DNA from: Candidatus Eisenbergiella stercoravium | GTDB taxonomy: Bacteria > Bacillota > Clostridia > Lachnospirales > Lachnospiraceae | Direction of reading: 5' to 3' | Length of the DNA: 64,000 nucleotides | NCBI GenBank assembly: GCA_019113175.1 | Contig: DXHY01000059.1 | Span: 1-64,000, forward strand | Notes under the pieces: generated by a model | Told to the model about the DNA's origin: nothing | Databases searched by the model: none | What the model saw: the letters and a program-made list of their open reading frames with translations, nothing else | Part shown: piece by piece, positions 5,272 to 63,852 of the stretch | How the letters are laid out: every line of letters starts with the position of its first letter | How positions within the stretch are numbered: position 1 is the first letter of the stretch | Made by a program: the position numbers and the translations under genes

Positions 5272-5299
5272 TTCCATTTTTTCACCGATGAGCTATAAT
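5272..5299 (+). promoter_or_regulatory. Likely promoter of the M24 peptidase transcript
   Basis: A perfect TATAAT at 5294-5299 has only a weak -35 (TTCCAT at 5272). It sits just before the hairpin array, so the array would form a roughly 225-base untranslated leader of the peptidase mRNA. Confidence 0.5.
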
Positions 5300-5307
5300 G
5301 GGGAAGG

Positions 5308-5517
5308 CAGAACACGGTTCGTGCTGATTTTAATGCCGCCTGTCGGCGGCAGAAAGAGAGGGGCACGAACACGGTTCGTGCCGAAGAATGGCGCAGCCAT
5401 TCTTCCATAATTTTTATGCCGCCTGTCGGCGGCAGAAAGAGAGGGGCACGAACACAGTTCGTGCCGAAGAATGGCATAGGCCATTCTTCCATGATTTTTA
5501 TGCCGCCTGTCGGCGGC
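5308..5517 (+). repeat. Tandem three-hairpin array (modules B-C-A) in the leader of the M24 peptidase gene
   Basis: Three hairpin types alternate. A = GCCGCC-TGTC-GGCGGC at 5335-5350, 5418-5433 and 5502-5517. B = GGCACGAA/TTCGTGCC at 5362-5382 and 5445-5465, plus a damaged copy near 5308-5325. C = GAAGAATGGC/GCCATTCTTC at 5383-5405 and 5466-5489. The B-C-A unit repeats with a period of 83-84 bases. Arms are perfect while loops vary (cacgg/cacag; gca/atag), as if pairing is selected. Each A hairpin is followed by AGAAAGAGAGG; after the last one this serves as the Shine-Dalgarno of the next gene. There are no unique spacers, so this is not a CRISPR array. Confidence 0.9.
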
Positions 5518-5533
5518 AGAAAGAGAGGAAATG

Positions 5534-6622
5534 ATGGACGAAATTTATACCGCCCGGCTGAACCGGGTATGTGAAGAGCTGAATAAAAAAGGCCTGGATC
5601 AGATGCTGGTCAGTGATCCCTTAAGCATCCGGTACCTGACCGGAGTGTGGGTGCAGCCCTATGAGCGTCTGTATGCCCTGTATGTGCGCACGGACGGAAA
5701 GCACTGCTTTTTCCTGAACAATCTGTTTGTGATTCCAGAGGTAGATCTGGAACAGGTCTGGATGTCCGACACGGACGACTGCATCGGCATGGTGGCGGAG
5801 CATATCGCAAAATATGGCGCAGACGCTCCTCTTGGCATTGACAAAAGCTGGTCCGCCGGCTTTCTGCTCGGCCTGATGGAGCGAAATCCGAAGGCGAAAT
5901 ATGTGAACGCTTCCTGCTGCGTGGACCGGGTACGTTCCATCAAGGATGCTTATGAGCAGGAAAAAATGCGGGAATCCTCCCAGGTCAATGACGCCTGCAT
6001 GGAAAAGATCGCAGCCTTTGTGAAGGAAGGAATGACGGAAAAGGAATGTGCGGATCAGGTTCGCGCTCTCTACAAAGAAGCCGGTTGTCCGGAAGGCTTC
6101 GATACCATCCTTTCCTTCGGCGCCAACGCGGCCGATCCACACCACGAGCCGGACGATACCCGTCTGAAAGCCGGGGACTGCATTGTGATCGACATGGGCT
6201 GCGTAAAGGACGACTACTGCTCTGACATGACGCGCACCTTCTTCTGTAAGGAAGCGCCTGCGGAATACGCGGCCATCCACGATCTGGTCCGTCAGGCCAA
6301 CGAGAAGGCGGAGAGCATCATCAGGCCCGGCGTGCGTTTCTGCGACATCGACAAAGCCGCAAGGGATCTGATCACGGAAGCGGGATACGGCCCTTATTTC
6401 AACCACAGGCTGGGCCATTCCATCGGCCTGCAGGATCATGAGCCCGGTGATGTGAGTTCGGCAAATACCGCCTGTGTGGAAGAAGGCATGACTTTTTCCA
6501 TCGAGCCCGGCGTTTACCTTCCCGGCAGATTCGGTGTGCGGGTGGAGGATCTGGTTCTTGTAACAAAGGACGGCTGCGAGGTGCTCAATCATGTGGACAA
6601 GCACTGGAAGGTGATCGGGTAA
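5534..6622 (+). CDS. M24 family Xaa-Pro peptidase (aminopeptidase P-like)
   Basis: A 362-residue cytosolic metallopeptidase that removes N-terminal residues next to proline. The N-terminal creatinase domain spans about residues 1-130. The pita-bread catalytic domain shows the dinuclear metal ligands: Asp in VIDMGCVKDD, Asp in CSDMTRTFF, His in HRLGHSIG, Glu in FSIEPGVY and Glu in RVEDLV. Two in-frame ATGs occur (5531 and 5534); the second has the better 5-base spacing to GAGAGG, so I use it. Its leader carries the hairpin array. It is monocistronic, ending at a bidirectional terminator. Confidence 0.9.
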   Translation: MDEIYTARLNRVCEELNKKGLDQMLVSDPLSIRYLTGVWVQPYERLYALYVRTDGKHCFFLNNLFVIPEVDLEQVWMSDTDDCIGMVAEHIAKYGADAPLGIDKSWSAGFLLGLMERNPKAKYVNASCCVDRVRSIKDAYEQEKMRESSQVNDACMEKIAAFVKEGMTEKECADQVRALYKEAGCPEGFDTILSFGANAADPHHEPDDTRLKAGDCIVIDMGCVKDDYCSDMTRTFFCKEAPAEYAAIHDLVRQANEKAESIIRPGVRFCDIDKAARDLITEAGYGPYFNHRLGHSIGLQDHEPGDVSSANTACVEEGMTFSIEPGVYLPGRFGVRVEDLVLVTKDGCEVLNHVDKHWKVIG

Positions 6623-21252: not shown

Positions 21253-21405
21253 TCAGAACAGAATCTTTGATTTTCCCGCGAGCAGCTTCGCCCCGCCGAT
21301 GATCAACAGCGTGCCGCTCACGATTCCCGTCACCAGAACCACCACGCCTACCGCAATATTGAGGGCTCCGGAACCGCTTATCGTCTTATAAATCTTTTCT
21401 TCCAT
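21253..21405 (-). CDS. 50-residue single- or two-span membrane protein
   Basis: Short protein opening MEEKIYKTISGSGALNIAVG, then one long hydrophobic stretch rich in Gly, Val and Ile ending in AKLLAGKSKILF. ATG 21405 directly follows the hairpin array with AGGAAAGAGG as ribosome site. No family recognised. The ORF is open upstream through the array, but that reading is set by the repeat itself. Confidence 0.6.
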   Translation of the reverse strand: MEEKIYKTISGSGALNIAVGVVVLVTGIVSGTLLIIGGAKLLAGKSKILF

Positions 21406-21419
21406 TCTACCTCTTTCCT

Positions 21420-21598
21420 GGTGCCGGCAGGCAGCATCAGATTCAGAAGAAATATGTGCGTCAGCACATATTTCCAGGCCAAAAGCCACAGGCTTTCGGC
21501 CGCCTCTTCTTTCCTGCTGCCGGCAGGCAGCATCAGATTCAGAAGAAATATGTGCGTCAGCACATATTTCCAGGCCGAAAGCCTTCAGGCTTTTGGCC
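21420..21598 (-). repeat. Tandem three-hairpin array between pyrE and a small membrane gene
   Basis: Read on the minus strand, two units of about 96 bases each contain: B-type GGCCGAAAGCC/GGCTTTTGGCC (21573-21598; copy with one mismatch at 21477-21501), C-type GAAATATGTGC/GCACATATTTC (21545-21570 and 21449-21474, perfect) and A-type TGCTGCC/GGCAGCA (21515-21532; copy with one mismatch at about 21420-21436). Each unit ends in AGGAAAGARG; the last serves as Shine-Dalgarno of the gene at 21405. Order and spacing mirror the 5.3 kb array although the stems differ in sequence. Confidence 0.88.
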
Positions 21599-31246: not shown

Positions 31247-32074
31247 TCACCCACGGCAGGAAAGCATTATCGCCTGCTGTACCTCAAGCAGACAGCTCTT
31301 GAAAGAATAACCTGCAAAAAAGGCGCTGTCGATCACATCCTCCGACACCTCTTCCCCACGGGTAAAGGGCGGGCAGGGATTGAGCAGGGCGCCGGGGCGG
31401 GCCAGTTCCATTCTTTGCTTCGTAATCTGAAATTTTCGGAAAGCCTCTTTGTGTTCTTTCGGCCAGGCATCCGTGCAGACGATGTCCGCGTCCGCCATGG
31501 CCTCATCCAGATCATGGCAGACTTTTACTCCGTCCATCTCAAAACCCTGCGGGCAGCACTGGACGAAGGACAGGCCAAGAACATCCGCCGCTTCCTTCCA
31601 GGACTGGCCGATATTCCCCGCCTCGCCAAAAAACAGGTAATGATCGCGCCGAAAATCCTGCCGGATGCGGGAAAGGGCATACAAATCGGAGAGAATCTCA
31701 CAGGGATGGTTTTCATCCGTCATGGCGTTGACCACCGGGCAGGCGGAATTTGCCGCCAGCCGCTCGAGAAGCCGGATGTCTCTGTGTCTTATCACCAGCA
31801 GATCGGCCCAGTTCGCCAGATAGCCCGCCACATCTTTCAGATCCTCTTTTTTGTCCAGCGTTTCCGGTGGAAAAAGGATGGGCTGGCCGCCCAGCGCGGC
31901 GACGCCCTTTTCAAAGGTCACGCGGGTGCGCAGGCTTGCTGAGGGAAAGCAGAGCACCGCCGTTTTTCCCTGCAGCGCCTCCCTGTGTTTTCCGGCCCGG
32001 AGCTCATCCGCCAGGCGGAACACCTCATCAATTCCTTTTTCTCCCAAATCCGAAAGGTGAATCAGATGTTTCAC
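31247..32074 (-). CDS. Aspartate/ornithine carbamoyltransferase family protein
   Basis: A 275-residue protein, shorter than the usual 300-330. FPSASLRTRVTFE takes the place of the carbamoyl-phosphate motif S-T-R-T-R; S-L-R-T-R as here is the form known from acetylornithine carbamoyltransferases. ENHPCEILSDL matches HPxQ with Glu for Gln, and CPPFTRGEEVSEDV corresponds to the C-terminal HCLP-RGEEV loop with the His missing. I read GTG 32074 as start (GGAGGTGGTAAAT upstream); the frame continues to 32140 through a hairpin. Amino-acceptor substrate is uncertain. It follows jetC by 62 bases. Confidence 0.7.
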   Translation of the reverse strand: MKHLIHLSDLGEKGIDEVFRLADELRAGKHREALQGKTAVLCFPSASLRTRVTFEKGVAALGGQPILFPPETLDKKEDLKDVAGYLANWADLLVIRHRDIRLLERLAANSACPVVNAMTDENHPCEILSDLYALSRIRQDFRRDHYLFFGEAGNIGQSWKEAADVLGLSFVQCCPQGFEMDGVKVCHDLDEAMADADIVCTDAWPKEHKEAFRKFQITKQRMELARPGALLNPCPPFTRGEEVSEDVIDSAFFAGYSFKSCLLEVQQAIMLSCRG

Positions 32075-32095: not shown

Positions 32096-32122
32096 GAAGA
32101 ATGTCCCAAAGGGACATTCTTC
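32096..32122 (-). repeat. Single C-type hairpin module before the carbamoyltransferase gene
   Basis: Perfect 12-base stem GAAGAATGTCCC / GGGACATTCTTC with a 3-base loop, close to the C module GAAGAATGGC/GCCATTCTTC of the 5.3 kb array. It lies between jetC and the GGAGG of the next gene. Confidence 0.7.
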
Positions 32123-35619: not shown

Positions 35620-36361
35620 TTCTGGTTTCTCCTTCTTCCTGTGCTTTTGGGCTCTCCGGATATATGCCGGCGGCGTCCTCCGCCGGATCGTCGTCTGCCG
35701 CAACTGTTTCTTCTGCCGCGGCTGTTTCTTCTGCCGCGGCTGTTCCCTCCGCCGCGGCATCATCCTGTCCCGCCTCTTCGCCGAACACGGCGAGAAGCTT
35801 TTTAATATCCTCGCGCATCAGCAGCAGATTGATGCAGGGATAGATGAGGATCCGGGTGCCTTCGTTCAGCTCCTCCAGCGCGTCCAGCGGTTCGATCATC
35901 TGATATTTTTTCAGAATGGCAAACGCCCGCCTGATCTCCGAAATCGAGGACAGACTTCTGGTGAGCCGGAATTCCCCGGCTCTCGCAGAAAGCGCGCCAA
36001 AGGTGGTGATGATGTTCACGCTGGAGGAGACCGCCGCCATCTGTTCGTCATAGATCAGCTTCAGCAGAAGCAGATAGATGGTTGCCAGCTTGGGAAGCCG
36101 TTCTCCCAGCAGGGTCTGTCCCTGGATATAGATGGCGCCGAGTTCCGTATTTCTCTCAATAAGAATCCCCGCCACATCCAGATAATCCTTCAGAAATTCC
36201 ATGTGCTGCTCACAGAAATAGTAGTCCTGATTGAGGACGAGCCGCCCCGCCCTTTTATCATATTTTCTTTCCAGCAGAAAGGTCTGGCGGTAGAGCTGGC
36301 TGAGCACGTCCTGCATCCGCTCCTGATCCGCGCTGGAAAGCTGGCTGATATATTCAAGCAT
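35609..36361 (-). CDS. jetB: JetB/MksE-like (DUF4194) subunit
   Basis: A 250-residue KITE-type subunit that binds the kleisin JetA. It opens MLEYISQLSSADQERMQDVL, with winged-helix-like segments (VNIITTFGALSARAGEFRLT, RRAFAILKKYQMIEPLD). The last 50 residues are low-complexity Ala/Glu repeats (AAAEETAAAEETVAA), an unusual tail that probably varies between strains. ATG 36361 follows GGAGGTAAAA, two bases after jetA. Confidence 0.82.
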   Translation of the reverse strand: MLEYISQLSSADQERMQDVLSQLYRQTFLLERKYDKRAGRLVLNQDYYFCEQHMEFLKDYLDVAGILIERNTELGAIYIQGQTLLGERLPKLATIYLLLLKLIYDEQMAAVSSSVNIITTFGALSARAGEFRLTRSLSSISEIRRAFAILKKYQMIEPLDALEELNEGTRILIYPCINLLLMREDIKKLLAVFGEEAGQDDAAAEGTAAAEETAAAEETVAADDDPAEDAAGIYPESPKAQEEGETRNAE

Positions 36362-49711: not shown

Positions 49712-52321
49712 TCACTGCGCTCCGATGGTTTCCGTCACGGACATGGCGCGGATGCGCCGTGTCGGGCCGTATATGGCGAGCAGGACGGAAATGGCGGTAA
49801 CGGTCAGGATAACCAGAAGCGGAATGATGGGGAAATGCCAGGCAGATCCCCATTGCGCGGTCACCAGACTTTCATAGAGCAGCCAGTTCAGGGGAAGCCC
49901 CGCCGCGCAGCCGGTGAGGACTCCCGAAAGGCAGCAGGTCAGCGTCTCTGCCGCCACCATTTTCACAAGCTGATCCACCGTCATTCCCACGGCCCGCATT
50001 CTGCCGTATTCCCGGATGCGGGCGGACACGCCCATGTCCGTGCTGTTGATGATGTGAACCAGGCTGATCAGGGCGATCACGGCAAGGAAGCCGTACACGA
50101 TCAGCATCAGGGAATACCAGGCGCCGACCGCCTCGCTGTTGCTCATTCTCCGGTCGGAAAAGGTGACCGCATCGGCCCCTTCCGCCTCCTCCGCAATCGC
50201 GCGGATGCGCTGCACATTCTCATCCGAAGCATTTCTTTTCAGCTGCATATCGATGACGGTATAGTTCCCCATGCCGGTCAGCTCCGAAAACAGCTTCTCC
50301 GAACAGATCACCTGGGTTTCGCCTTCCGTGGTACAGGGGGTGTCTGACAGCACGCCCAGGACGGTCACATCCCTTGTTTCTCCGGAAAACTGCAGGGAGA
50401 TCACATCCCCCTCCGCAAGGTCAAACTGTCCCTCATAGCCGTAAACCACAAGCACGCCCTCTCCCCGCCGTACCGCGTCCATCACCTGCGAAGCCTTCGT
50501 GAAACGCGCAGTTTTCGTGAAGCGCGAAGCCTTCGTGAAATGCGCAGCTTTCGTGAAGCACGAAGCCTTCATGGATTCCCCTGTTTTCTTCGACGGCACA
50601 AGGAGATCGTCCTGCGCCCACTGAAGCTGGTTCTCCTCATAGGAAAACAGGCAGACGCTTCCCTGTATTCCTTCCCATGAGGCAGGAATCTCATATGCAA
50701 AGCTTCTTCCATAAACACGCTTTACCGCCTCCTCTTCTGCAAGGCGCTCAGACAGCCGGCGGGACAGGGAACAGGTATTGTCCACGCTTATGACGGAAAG
50801 ATCCGGCGCTGCCGGATCCAGCGGGTTGACCGCATGCTTTCCCATATCCGGCAGCACGCTGAAGGCGAGAAACAGAATGACGCTCAGCGCGTAGGAGCCT
50901 GCCAGCAGGAAAAATCCCTTCTGAAAGCTTTTCGGGAAGCCTTTCCCTCCCCCCAGGGCATGATGAATTCCCAAAGCGATTTCCACGCTGAAATGCCTGG
51001 TATCCGCAGCCTTCCTCCTTCCAGGCGTGTCCGCCGGGAAAGGGGTCCCTGCGTTTCCGGATACGGCGGTCAGGGGAGAGACGGCTGCAGCCCTTTTCGC
51101 CGGCGTCCGTGATGCCAGAAGCACAGTGAGGACGCCCACCACAGCGCCTGCCGCAATGCCGATCCAGCTGATGGAAAACAAGGGCATTTCCGCAAACAGG
51201 CTGCTCAGCAGCTTTAAAACGGCGCACAGCCCCCAGATCACCGCCGTTCCGATCAGAAGTCCGGCAGGGACCGCCGTCCGGCACCACCCAAGCGCCTCTC
51301 TTCTCACGAAACGGGAAATCTGGGGCCGGGTCGCTCCGAGGCAGCGCAGCATCCCGAAAAACTCCGTTCTCTGGGCAATGTTGCTGTTCAGGCTCCCCGT
51401 GATCATCAGCACCCCAAAAATCATCACCAGAACAGCCAGCGCAATCCCTGTCTGCATCAGCCGGATCATATAGGAATCGCTGCTCTGTCCGATCAGGCCG
51501 AGCATTTTGATGTTTTCCGACACCTGCTCCTGCCGCAGGGAAAGCTGCTGTCTGATGTCGTCCAGCGTTTTCTGAATGCGGCAGAATGGGCTGAAAGCCA
51601 CCATATAAATGCTGTTCCGGTACGCTTCCTCCCCCTCTCCTGCCGCCTCCGCAATCCTGTAGAAGGAGTCCATATTCAGAAAGACGCCGAAGGCATCCTG
51701 CCTGTTCAGCCAGGAAAACTGTCCGCAGAAGCCGCTCACCGTCAAGCTTACCCGCCCTCCCCAGGGGATGTCAAGCGTTACCTGATCCCCGATGGAAAGT
51801 CCAAGTCTCTCTCTGGCATTTTCTGAAAAGACCGCTTCATTCTCCTTCCCGGGGAAATCCCCCTCCAGAATTTCTGCCGTGGGAAACATCTCAATCAGCT
51901 CCTCCTCCATTCCCACCACCGATGTTTCCACCCCGTCGATGCGCCAGTTCTCATCCAGGCCGTAATTACAGATGCCGTACCAGCCTGCCGCCGTCACCTG
52001 GGGCCTTGCCGCGATGAGAGCAGCCTGCTCCGGAGTGATTTCCCGAAATGAGGCATGCCAGCCTCCGTCGCTCATTCTGGCCTGCCGGATCTGGTTTCGG
52101 ATTTCCATATCCGCCATGCCGAAAATGGTCATGACCAGGGCAACCGCCAGCACGATACAGATTCTGGTCATCCTGCTTCGCTTCCTGTGGACGTGCTCAG
52201 AAAGGGGAATCAGGTCCAGCCAGCTTTTCATGGGGGCGCTGCCCGCAGGGGAAATTCCTCTCCGTTTCCCGGTCTTTCCCGCAGGCTCATTTCGATTTTT
52301 TCTTTCTCCTTTAAATCTCAT
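49712..52321 (-). CDS. FtsX-type ABC transporter permease with two FtsX domains
   Basis: An 869-residue permease. A first span near residue 55-75, a large outer domain, three spans (about 300-420), then a second half with outer domain and spans at about 735-860 give the two-FtsX layout of large export or peptide-sensing permeases. A six-residue repeat (K-A-S-x-F-T) fills about residues 582-611. Start ATG 52321 has GGAGG upstream and overlaps the ATPase gene by 11 bases. It works with that ATPase and probably answers to the two-component system upstream; antimicrobial-peptide defence is a plausible but unproven role. Confidence 0.87.
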   Translation of the reverse strand: MRFKGERKNRNEPAGKTGKRRGISPAGSAPMKSWLDLIPLSEHVHRKRSRMTRICIVLAVALVMTIFGMADMEIRNQIRQARMSDGGWHASFREITPEQAALIAARPQVTAAGWYGICNYGLDENWRIDGVETSVVGMEEELIEMFPTAEILEGDFPGKENEAVFSENARERLGLSIGDQVTLDIPWGGRVSLTVSGFCGQFSWLNRQDAFGVFLNMDSFYRIAEAAGEGEEAYRNSIYMVAFSPFCRIQKTLDDIRQQLSLRQEQVSENIKMLGLIGQSSDSYMIRLMQTGIALAVLVMIFGVLMITGSLNSNIAQRTEFFGMLRCLGATRPQISRFVRREALGWCRTAVPAGLLIGTAVIWGLCAVLKLLSSLFAEMPLFSISWIGIAAGAVVGVLTVLLASRTPAKRAAAVSPLTAVSGNAGTPFPADTPGRRKAADTRHFSVEIALGIHHALGGGKGFPKSFQKGFFLLAGSYALSVILFLAFSVLPDMGKHAVNPLDPAAPDLSVISVDNTCSLSRRLSERLAEEEAVKRVYGRSFAYEIPASWEGIQGSVCLFSYEENQLQWAQDDLLVPSKKTGESMKASCFTKAAHFTKASRFTKTARFTKASQVMDAVRRGEGVLVVYGYEGQFDLAEGDVISLQFSGETRDVTVLGVLSDTPCTTEGETQVICSEKLFSELTGMGNYTVIDMQLKRNASDENVQRIRAIAEEAEGADAVTFSDRRMSNSEAVGAWYSLMLIVYGFLAVIALISLVHIINSTDMGVSARIREYGRMRAVGMTVDQLVKMVAAETLTCCLSGVLTGCAAGLPLNWLLYESLVTAQWGSAWHFPIIPLLVILTVTAISVLLAIYGPTRRIRAMSVTETIGAQ
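50488..50577 (-). repeat. Coding minisatellite, five 18-base units in the FtsX permease
   Basis: Five exact-length 18-base units (consensus GCGAAGCCTTCGTGAAGC on the plus strand) starting at 50488, 50506, 50524, 50542 and 50560. Units 1, 3 and 5 and units 2 and 4 are most alike, suggesting a 36-base higher-order duplication. The frame is kept in multiples of six residues, so copy number can change without breaking the gene. Confidence 0.9.
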
Positions 52322-53089: not shown

Positions 53090-54439
53090 TTACAGTTCTG
53101 AAAGAAAGGAAATGGAGAAAACGGTTCTTCCGCTGAAAGAACCTCCTTCACCGAAAAAATTCCCCTTGCCGGGAGATCTTCTCTCATCGGAAAAATTCCC
53201 CTCTCCGGGAGATCTTCTCTCATCGGAAAAATTCTCCTCATCGGGAGTGCTGCTTACAGACAGCACACCGCCCTGTCCCTCCACCACCGCCTTCGCGAGC
53301 GGAAGGCCAAGACCAACTCCCTGCATGCTGCGGGCCGCTCTGTCCCTGCCGCTTCGATAGAAGCGTTTGAAGATATGGGGCAGATCCTCCGGAAGGATTC
53401 CACAGCCGTCGTCCTCCACCGACAGGCGGAAAAGTCCAGGTGACCGTTCCCAGGAAATGCGCACCGTTCCTCCTCGTTCCGTATGATCCAGCGCGTTTTT
53501 TACCAGGTTGGACAGCGCCTCCGCCGTCCAGGCAGGATCGCAGCGCACCCGTTCCTTTGGGTCCCCTTCCGCAATCAGCCGCTTTCCCTCCTGTTTGGCC
53601 CGGGTGGTCAGCTCCTCCACCGCTTCCCGGACCAGCTCCGATACCGGACAGTCCTCCGGCTCAAAGCGGACACTCCCCGCGTCCAGACGCATGATTTTCA
53701 AAAGCAGGCCGATCAGGCGCTGCATCCGCTCCAGGGACTGAAGGGCTTTTGCGGAAAACTCCCGGACGGTTTCCTCCCGCTCCGGCTCTTCCTGCAGAAT
53801 TTCCATATACATGGACAGCGCCGCAACCGGAGTCTTCATCTGATGGGAAATATCCGAAACGGCATTCTTCAGGGCTTCTTTTGCGGTCCGCTCCGCTTCC
53901 CCCCGCACCTGAGCGGCCCTGGAAAGCTGGTCTGCCGCCGAAAACAGACGATACAGCGCCCCTGTTCCGCCTCTGGGCAGATGCCGTGAAAAATCCCCTT
54001 CCGCAAAGCGGGAAAGTACCCCCGCCGCCTGCTCATACAGAGCTTCCCTACGCCGCAGAAACAGCAGAGTCCCTGCCAGGAGGACAGTGCCCATCAGGCA
54101 GGCTTCTGCGGCCGAAACGAGCGCAGTCCTGCCAGCCGCACGCCTGACCGCCGGATACAGAAGCGCCGGACTTTCCTCCGTCCGTCCCGTACTGAGAAGA
54201 AGGCCCTTTCCTTCTTCCGACACCTCCGATACGCTCAGAATTTCCGCCGTCTTCCCTTCGGAGAGACCGGATGCGAGCATGCCGCTTACCAGCTGTGCCT
54301 CCCTGTATAAAAGCGCTTCCTTCAGCTCCCGCGCCTGCACCAGGCTGCTCAGAATCCCGAAGCTCAGAAGCAGCGCACAAAACAGGAAAAGAAAGATCAG
54401 AAAGCTCCGCTCCTGCCTGTCCTGCCAGATCTCTTCCAT
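53090..54439 (-). CDS. Sensor histidine kinase with coding minisatellite near C-terminus
   Basis: A 449-residue membrane kinase. Two spans (about 12-32 and 110-130) enclose a short outer loop. The H box is SDISHQMKTPVAALSMYM, N box NLVKNALDHT, G1 DDGCGILPED, F box FKRFYRS and G2 GVGLGLPLAKAVV. Beyond G2, about residues 400-433 hold repeats of E-G-N-F-S-D-E-R-R-S-P before the last strand VFSISFLSEL, an insertion not usual in this fold. Two bases separate its ATG from the response-regulator stop. It likely controls the ABC transporter downstream. Confidence 0.9.
   Translation of the reverse strand: MEEIWQDRQERSFLIFLFLFCALLLSFGILSSLVQARELKEALLYREAQLVSGMLASGLSEGKTAEILSVSEVSEEGKGLLLSTGRTEESPALLYPAVRRAAGRTALVSAAEACLMGTVLLAGTLLFLRRREALYEQAAGVLSRFAEGDFSRHLPRGGTGALYRLFSAADQLSRAAQVRGEAERTAKEALKNAVSDISHQMKTPVAALSMYMEILQEEPEREETVREFSAKALQSLERMQRLIGLLLKIMRLDAGSVRFEPEDCPVSELVREAVEELTTRAKQEGKRLIAEGDPKERVRCDPAWTAEALSNLVKNALDHTERGGTVRISWERSPGLFRLSVEDDGCGILPEDLPHIFKRFYRSGRDRAARSMQGVGLGLPLAKAVVEGQGGVLSVSSTPDEENFSDERRSPGEGNFSDERRSPGKGNFFGEGGSFSGRTVFSISFLSEL
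53148..53240 (-). repeat. Coding minisatellite, 36-base units in the sensor kinase
   Basis: Two full units at 53169-53204 and 53205-53240 and a partial unit at 53148-53168, nearly identical, each encoding 12 residues. Copy number can change in frame. Confidence 0.88.
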
Positions 54440-63755: not shown

Positions 63756-63771
63756 GTTAGTCTTATCTAAC
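63756..63771 (+). promoter_or_regulatory. DtxR/IdeR-type operator-like palindrome before the FecCD gene
   Basis: GTTAG-TCTTAT-CTAAC, perfect arms, resembles DtxR-family boxes (TTAGGTTAGSCTAACCTAA). A half-site GTTAGAC lies at 63731. Position before an iron-type permease suggests metal-dependent repression; inferred. Confidence 0.55.
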
Positions 63772-63779
63772 ATTTTACA

Positions 63780-63852
63780 GAAAGAATGCCCTGCCATTCT
63801 TTCACACCTGATACGCCGCCCGCAGGCGGCCGCACGGGCCAAAGCTTCGTGC
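63780..63852 (+). repeat. Three-hairpin array (C-A-B) before the FecCD gene
   Basis: C: GAAAGAATG/CATTCTTTC (63780-63803). A: GCCGCC-CGCA-GGCGGC (63815-63830). B: GCACG/CGTGC (63832-63852) with partial inner pairing. The three module types match those of the 5.3 kb array (GAAGAATGG, GCCGCC, GGCACGAA) in a different order. Then TGAAGGAAGGAGG leads to the next gene. Confidence 0.82.

Follow-up and report, generated by a model that had tools for sequence, protein, structure and literature searches.

Several described repeats and leader elements share features with the hairpin array analysed here, in which three hairpins (B, C and A) are followed by a Shine-Dalgarno (SD) sequence. BOX elements of Streptococcus pneumoniae are modular and present in many copies, with ordered modules in variable tandem number, and the excerpted account predicts a fold if they are transcribed (PMC3049150). 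Like BOX, the present element is a modular interspersed repeat, and in both cases the neighbouring genes lack a clear functional class (for BOX, PMC3049150). However, BOX is over-represented between convergent genes (PMC3049150), whereas each array inspected here points towards a start codon, and almost all of them terminate in the SD of that start. By description, boxA and boxC end modules bound the tandem boxB, whereas the B-C-A-SD repeats here are self-similar and have no end modules.

TAACTGA repeats of Beggiatoaceae are heptamers that form many tandem sets located within a few nucleotides upstream of start codons (PMC4679880). They resemble the present element in showing no gene-function pattern and in their species-specific spread, but the heptamers, in the excerpted text, are not predicted to fold and mostly replace a recognisable SD, whereas the units here fold and carry an SD (PMC4679880). 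The leader of cry3A mRNA contains STAB-SD, an SD-like sequence that does not initiate and can bind 30S and block RNase J1 (PMC4113751). Internal tails of the present arrays keep their predicted anti-SD pairing and could act alike, but the excerpt on cry3A describes no hairpin repeat (PMC4113751). In the E. coli rpsA leader, three upstream hairpins contribute to translation, according to the passage on that gene (PMC4679880). The rpsA case differs in that it concerns a single gene without a strong SD. We know of no repeated family built on the rpsA leader.

MIRU repeats of mycobacteria are tandem, intercistronic and gene-oriented, and they lie at translation start sites; their target is an overlapping stop/start, unlike that of the hairpin cassette, and to our knowledge they have no conserved hairpins. 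Discussions of small interspersed repeats in bacteria usually treat them as parasites whose effects on expression are accidental. A search of openly licensed papers found no description of this hairpin-SD element, which is weak evidence of absence.

Arrays in the analysed window

The window is a 64,000-nucleotide stretch of Candidatus Eisenbergiella stercoravium (contig DXHY01000059.1). A tandem array at 5306-5528 consists of one decayed and two full units (Table 1). In each full unit, stem B of 9 bp (GGCACGAAC/GTTCGTGCC) is followed by stem C of 10 bp (GAAGAATGGC/GCCATTCTTC), an 11-nt AT-rich spacer, the GC-rich stem A of 7 bp (TGCCGCC/GGCGGCA) and the purine tail GAAAGAGAGG. The arms are identical between the two copies, and the loops vary (ACG or ACA in B, GCA or ATAG in C). 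The initial annotation had read hairpins in a fixed order whose loops vary while the arms stay paired, and this is real for the two full units of 83 and 84 nt. It had also called the hairpins perfect, partial units included; this applies to both full units and fails for the decayed first unit, in which B is imperfect. The last tail is indeed the SD of the M24 metallopeptidase gene, as had been claimed for the end of the array, and the exact end of this tail is 5528, with in-frame ATGs at 5531 and 5534. The structure was also said to fall outside standard annotation. None of 4227 Rfam families matched at the gathering cut-off in the whole window. The best weak matches were RF04317 (16.5 bits on the minus strand; cut-off 100) and RF03160 (14.9 bits; cut-off 67.2).

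RNA folding of 5290-5535 gave a z of -9.7 relative to shuffles, with 0 of 200 shuffles as good. An architecture detector, which knows the unit layout and demands an SD-like tail but received no stem sequence, recovered the two full units and had 0 matches in 10 dinucleotide shuffles of the window. Chance or composition as the source of the array was rejected by these folding shuffles and detector controls, together with the genome samples given below. Given the probable -10 box upstream, transcription would begin roughly where the array itself does.

A second array at 21410-21598 on the minus strand, absent from the initial annotation, has the same design, and its B and C stem sequences differ from those of the first. 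Its last tail, AGGAAAGAGG, is the SD of a 50-aa ORF (21253-21405, minus). The strict detector missed this array, in which a mismatch interrupts one of the two A stems. The lone hairpin at 32096-32122 precedes a carbamoyltransferase gene (GTG start, 31247-32074; Pfam PF02729/PF00185). Short tandem repeats of 18 or 36 nt were also observed at 35694-35758, 50488-50570 and 53148-53247, with no visible tie to the hairpin family.

Table 1. Features of the hairpin arrays and related elements in the window
Feature	Position	Strand	Parts	Evidence
Probable -10 box, TATAAT	5294-5299	+		Read from sequence; absent from sigma-70 scan list
Decayed 5'-most unit (imperfect B, no C)	5306-5361	+	Stem A 5334-5351; SD-like tail 5352-5361	R1 match, 34.5 bits
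Full unit 1 (83 nt)	5362-5444	+	B 5362-5382; C 5383-5405; spacer 5406-5416; A 5417-5434; tail 5435-5444	R1 match, 89 bits
Full unit 2 (84 nt)	5445-5528	+	B 5445-5465; C 5466-5489; spacer 5490-5500; A 5501-5518; tail 5519-5528	R1 match, 95.1 bits (top R1 match of the genome)
M24 metallopeptidase gene	5531-6622	+		Pfam PF00557, E 4.2e-68; PF01321, E 4.7e-16
Second array, upstream unit	21503-21598	-		R1 match, 57.8 bits at 21505-21591
Second array, downstream unit	21410-21501	-		R1 match, 49.7 bits
Lone C-type hairpin, then GGAGG	32096-32122	-		Weak R1 match, 24.0 bits
Degenerate C-A element upstream of GGAGG, near window end	63765-63841	+		Weak R1 match, 24.1 bits

Copies before genes and conservation of structure

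The family size was determined in the own genome (G000). Blastn returned 59 matches, including antisense echoes of the palindromic stems. The covariance model R1 found at least 141 matches at E ≤ 0.01, with 150 of 2862 candidates scored, and the model R2, built from the first harvest, at least 145 at E ≤ 0.001. When R1 was run on 460 kb of the own genome, taken as one unselected tile, it gave 40 matches at E ≤ 1, several of them antisense echoes; a 400-kb sample of G012, from the same genus, gave 2 (E 0.21 and 0.7). The stem-blind architecture detector gave 6 matches versus 0 in the same two samples.

From 122 of the 141 R1 matches, 95 arrays were compiled (72 single, 19 double and 4 triple); the 19 matches left out all scored 29.5-40.3 bits, so that the 95 arrays lean to good copies. 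A start codon follows all 95 arrays (93 ATG) under a loose rule of at least 40 codons or an ORF running off the locus. The distance from SD to start has its mode at 6 nt, and the SD motif was unrecognised in 4 of the 95. Under a strict rule (ATG, at least 80 codons), a start was found after 91/95 arrays, compared to 4/95 at the antisense end and 574/4000 random positions. The tail is RGAAAGGAGG-like and complementary to the 3' end of 16S rRNA. Its predicted anti-SD pairing averaged -11.5 kcal/mol for the 95 final tails and -10.7 kcal/mol for 27 internal ones, against -6.3 kcal/mol in a crude comparison set of 677 first-ATG ORFs.

The genes after the arrays include those that we take, by eye from their translations, to be topA, metK, galE, purA, tyrS, fabH, fabD, murE, ispG, nrdR, hisF, trmD and argJ. 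By eye these genes appear unrelated, many are housekeeping genes, and they have no common pathway. An upstream gene in the same direction is present for 70 arrays, 33 of which begin within 60 nt past its stop codon, and 23 of the 95 arrays have a TATAAT-like box within 60 nt upstream. Therefore, many arrays probably lie within operons and some at promoters.

The stems are conserved in structure rather than in sequence. After removal of short or duplicate units, 107 parsed units of the own genome held 55 distinct sequences for stem B, 53 for C and 21 for A. The starting alignment, A1, was picked by a stem-demanding detector, so its value of 14/27 is biased, and R1, R2 and the model-fitted alignment A3 all derive from it. 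In A3 (117 matches, 113 distinct, including the antisense L067 at 39.1 bits and duplicates from overlapping loci), two-sided changes occurred in 25 of 27 pairs versus 18.0 pairs in shuffles. Furthermore, 96.2% of cells paired, compared to 77.7% in shuffles and 38-57% with slid partners, and 479 cells had two-sided changes versus 108 in shuffles. A MAFFT alignment of blastn-recruited copies, not chosen by structure, gave a more modest result: it was 95.4% paired, with a covariation score of 0.105 that 0 of 500 shuffles reached (0.062 in shuffles). Its two-sided pairs numbered 5/27 versus 3.2 in shuffles, 48 of 500 shuffles reached 5, and further pair types were fewer than in shuffles.

On the sense strand, 143 G-U cells were counted versus 12 A-C mismatches; therefore, the gene-sense strand is the folding one. 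This excess fits RNA, and single-stranded DNA of the same strand would give an equal picture. The clearest loop sequence bias was in C, where 45 of the 107 units read C(U[GU][AG]C)G. The idea that B loops are UNCG tetraloops was dropped, the counted loops being mostly 3-4 nt and free in sequence. Hairpins with a stem of at least 6 adjacent to the SD were found at 47/314 genes of the own genome versus 15.6 in shuffles; in the almost unit-free G012 the enrichment was mild (28/292 versus 15.2). In 64 of the 107 units, the 5' side of stem A contains an AUG, a possible upstream start. A conserved frame inside the units is unlikely because loop lengths vary.

In relatives, a start codon follows 70 of 71 arrays. 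Blastp gave 39 pairs to own-genome genes, of which 38 at more than 80% identity were used and one at 27.7% was dropped. Removal of two repeated units left 36 distinct orthologue pairs, which cover 23 of the 95 own arrays and take their structure from the own copy only. Across the 36 pairs, the share of changed positions was 10.8% in stems and 41.7% in loops; across the 38 pairs, it was 29.1% in the spacer and 29.5% in the tail. Among 855 orthologue base pairs, 746 were unchanged, and one-sided changes kept pairing in 29 and broke it in 49. There were 21 compensated and 10 uncompensated double changes, with 5.7 doubles in all expected under independence; the 21 trace to 18 different sites spread over 13 of the own arrays, orthologue pairs that have an own array in common are not independent of each other, and the relatives were recruited by sequence or model search. 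The compensated changes and the slow change of stems indicate that stems are maintained in place and not merely copied, an upkeep that would not be expected of a dead insertion.

The units are paired, change in a compensatory manner, lie on the gene strand and stand directly upstream of the gene, as in a structured cis-acting 5'-leader RNA. The initial annotation had proposed a covariance search, with many copies before start codons and compensatory stem changes as support, and both were found. It had named uniqueness of the segment to this place and stems without covariation as evidence against its reading; neither appeared.

Distribution, gain and loss of units

With R2 at E ≤ 0.001 and the best 150 candidates scored in each genome, the matches numbered at least 145 in G000, 124 in G006, 95 in G010, 87 in G007, 69 in G004, 63 in G005, 57 in G008, 48 in G009, 38 in G002 and 32 in G011. 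Nine of the 12 other genomes of the genus therefore had 32-124 matches each, and the three largest, G003, G001 and G012, had 3, 2 and 1, respectively. These three share one common array, A-SD-B-C-A-SD, before the same gene, in which the loops differ and the stems differ in part. One G003 array precedes a gene that by eye we take to be enolase (eno).

Of 39 named stretches with the B-C pattern, 29 were from Eisenbergiella-named MAGs, several with names pointing to poultry. A single 'uncultured Lachnospiraceae' bin supplied 9 more, and the last one was from a 'Mediterraneibacter' bin. On the contig of the latter (L111, CALWBC010000397.1), the unit in the galE leader is identical to that of Eisenbergiella intestinipullorum (L105), possibly through a binning error. 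Among 150 family genomes searched with stricter filters, matches occurred only in the own genome, G011 and G070, the last from another genus. A model from the four G070 copies gave at least 28 matches in G070 among the best 150 candidates scored. In nine G070 copies that were read, the order spacer-A-tail is kept, and C and, where present, B are spelled differently.

Units come and go between orthologues. None of 10 M24 orthologues has the array; TATAAT stands at the matching place in two array-less ones (L231 and L232), and the G001 leader has a simple hairpin pair with AGAATGAGAGG and no more. The metK leader of G005 has just AGGAGG after an upstream terminator-like hairpin, that of G006 has AACAGGAGG, one unit ending in AGGAGG and then AATGTATG, and that of G000 carries two units, of which the first lacks a normal B. 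By eye, the metK leaders (L298-L304) place the element, where present, between a SAM-riboswitch-like leader with a terminator and the metK SD. It was therefore probably added to an already regulated leader. Before argJ, G005 has only the SD, G004, G007, G008 and G010 have stem A and the SD, G000 and G009 have A-SD-B-C-A-SD, and G006 has a C-less variant. Orthologues with and without units also exist for an oxidoreductase gene.

Of the 95 first units, the 84 with a length of at least 80 were scanned for an SD-like motif at their upstream edge, between 16 nt ahead of the unit and 2 nt inside it. The motif was present in 56 of them, compared to 5-17 of 84 in windows further upstream. This could reflect a short duplication or a shared target. 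A unit that begins just past one SD-like motif and ends with another explains the ladders by tandem gain. Identity between units was up to 0.99 within arrays and never above 0.906 between arrays of the own genome; therefore, dispersal there is not recent. In G011, tandem arrays (L268, L273, L274) were observed, some of them reduced to one stem, spacer, A and tail or with another A stem, GCCCGC/GCGGGC. The reduced arrays suggest a minimal unit of one stem, A and SD.

A near-identical block of 85-127 nt was observed in seven copies in G003 (L333, L337, L340, L342, L344, L346 and L348), six of them at contig ends. It ends in CATTACTATTTGTGCCGCC..GGCGGCGGAATGGGGAT, an A-like hairpin, with an ATG within a few bases in L333 and L340, the two copies that were read, and its 3' half recurs in G010, G002 and G070. 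The block may be the end of a larger mobile element. An autonomous carrier was not found through this block, which contig ends cut, and its G012 relatives (L352, L361) have no transposase-like ORF by eye.

Proposed mechanism and competing explanations

Structure, covariation, orientation, position, SD flanks and presence or absence among orthologues are all read directly from the genomes. With these features, we favour with moderate confidence the explanation that the unit is a transcribed, self-contained translation-start cassette in a structured 5' leader that spread from SD to SD. We infer that the leader is transcribed as read. Stems B, C and A would fold locally in the transcript, and the purine tail would be presented as the gene's own SD. 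One likely benefit is that the stems would hold upstream RNA off the start site. A second, likely by analogy with STAB-SD, is stabilisation of the mRNA 5' region, in which stems and 30S-binding tails would shield it from 5' decay. The units would spread as an interspersed repeat that joins at existing SDs and would then multiply in tandem, because each starts just past one SD-like motif and ends with another.

The mean predicted unpaired probability from SD to AUG was 0.592 in the native context, 0.549 with the upstream part shuffled (native higher in 61/92) and 0.682 with it deleted. The predicted insulation is small; therefore, mRNA protection may matter more. Several results count against the cassette explanation: this weak insulation, the common occurrence of element-less orthologues, the excess of pair-breaking over pair-keeping one-sided changes, the two-sided pairs of the blastn-recruited alignment, whose number 48 of 500 shuffles reach, and the mild hairpin enrichment next to the SD in G012. 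The interpretation in the initial annotation is partly supported. Its suggestion of a self-copying element for translation control agrees with where the units lie, with their SD tail and with gains confined to particular species; the control itself, like any effect on mRNA life, is putative.

A selfish MITE-like interspersed repeat, surviving only where an SD is re-supplied, with a structure that serves its own copying and no benefit to the gene, is a rather unlikely alternative that nevertheless agrees with several results. Unrelated downstream genes, presence and absence between species, SD-like motifs on both flanks, the close likeness of tandem copies within arrays and the near-identical G003 blocks would all be expected of it. 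However, the ceiling on between-array identity means that no recent burst is seen in the own genome, and the compensatory upkeep of stems in orthologues does not fit. The window array has no inverted repeat across a unit, and a search for transposases of the Y1 family found none in 7 of the 13 genomes of the genus, each of these 7 being unit-rich. Blastn against plasmid and phage collections gave no matches, and a phage or plasmid carrier was set aside on this result. Two viral contigs hold the bare B palindrome, which was taken as chance.

That the arrays are RNA ladders through which a bound protein or ligand regulates a regulon appears improbable. The fixed stem order and the C-loop bias speak for such a ladder, but the 107 units of one genome have 55 different B and 53 different C stems, the downstream genes have no common pathway by eye, and no Rfam family reached its gathering score (best weak E 0.025 and 1.8). 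The protein-bound form of this idea, also raised in the initial annotation, is little supported, as stem sequences are not conserved and a clear sequence bias is confined to the C loop.

A transcription terminator or attenuator made of the C stem and a T run is very improbable: both full window units are terminator-like, with GAAGAATGGC..GCCATTCTTC followed by CATAATTTTT or CATGATTTTT, but a T run after C occurs in only 18/114 units and is thus not conserved, typical spacers being CATGATTAAAAT-like. A REP/BIME system moved by a Y1 (RAYT) transposase is least credible of all and was rejected as a requirement, since, despite the similar look of hairpin repeats in mosaic arrays and Y1 transposases in 6 of 13 genus genomes, Y1 presence does not track unit richness: Y1 (PF01797) was not found in G000, G002, G004, G005, G006, G007 and G011 (draft genomes in which a copy may be missed; 32-145 matches each), G012 has 8 Y1 transposases and 1 unit, and stem sequences vary freely.

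Returning to the cassette, we place it among small interspersed repeats, and an SD-exchanging element may be a kind of its own. More tentatively, it may represent an element class with the SD as its niche, which would join a gene's SD and supply its own structured SD, so that insertion would do no harm and might help. With every insertion a further landing site would arise, and ladders would extend themselves. The founders would have resembled the copies of the large-genome species, presumed here to be basal: the one upstream of the putative eno in G003 and the one at the common gene of G001, G003 and G012. From such founders the element would have expanded to more than 100 genes in element-rich species and, in parallel, in another genus.

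These results describe an element that carries the gene's ribosome-binding site and whose fold is preserved through compensatory changes even as the sequence diverges. Within one lineage it precedes scores of genes that are unrelated to each other, and many of these are of housekeeping type. The covariance models provide a candidate RNA family for annotation, and since unit number differs between orthologues, dose effects (0, 1, 2 or 3 units) are directly testable. In nature, the element would correspond to the insulated ribosome-binding sites that have been engineered, and it would give the lineage a route to rewire the translation of many genes.
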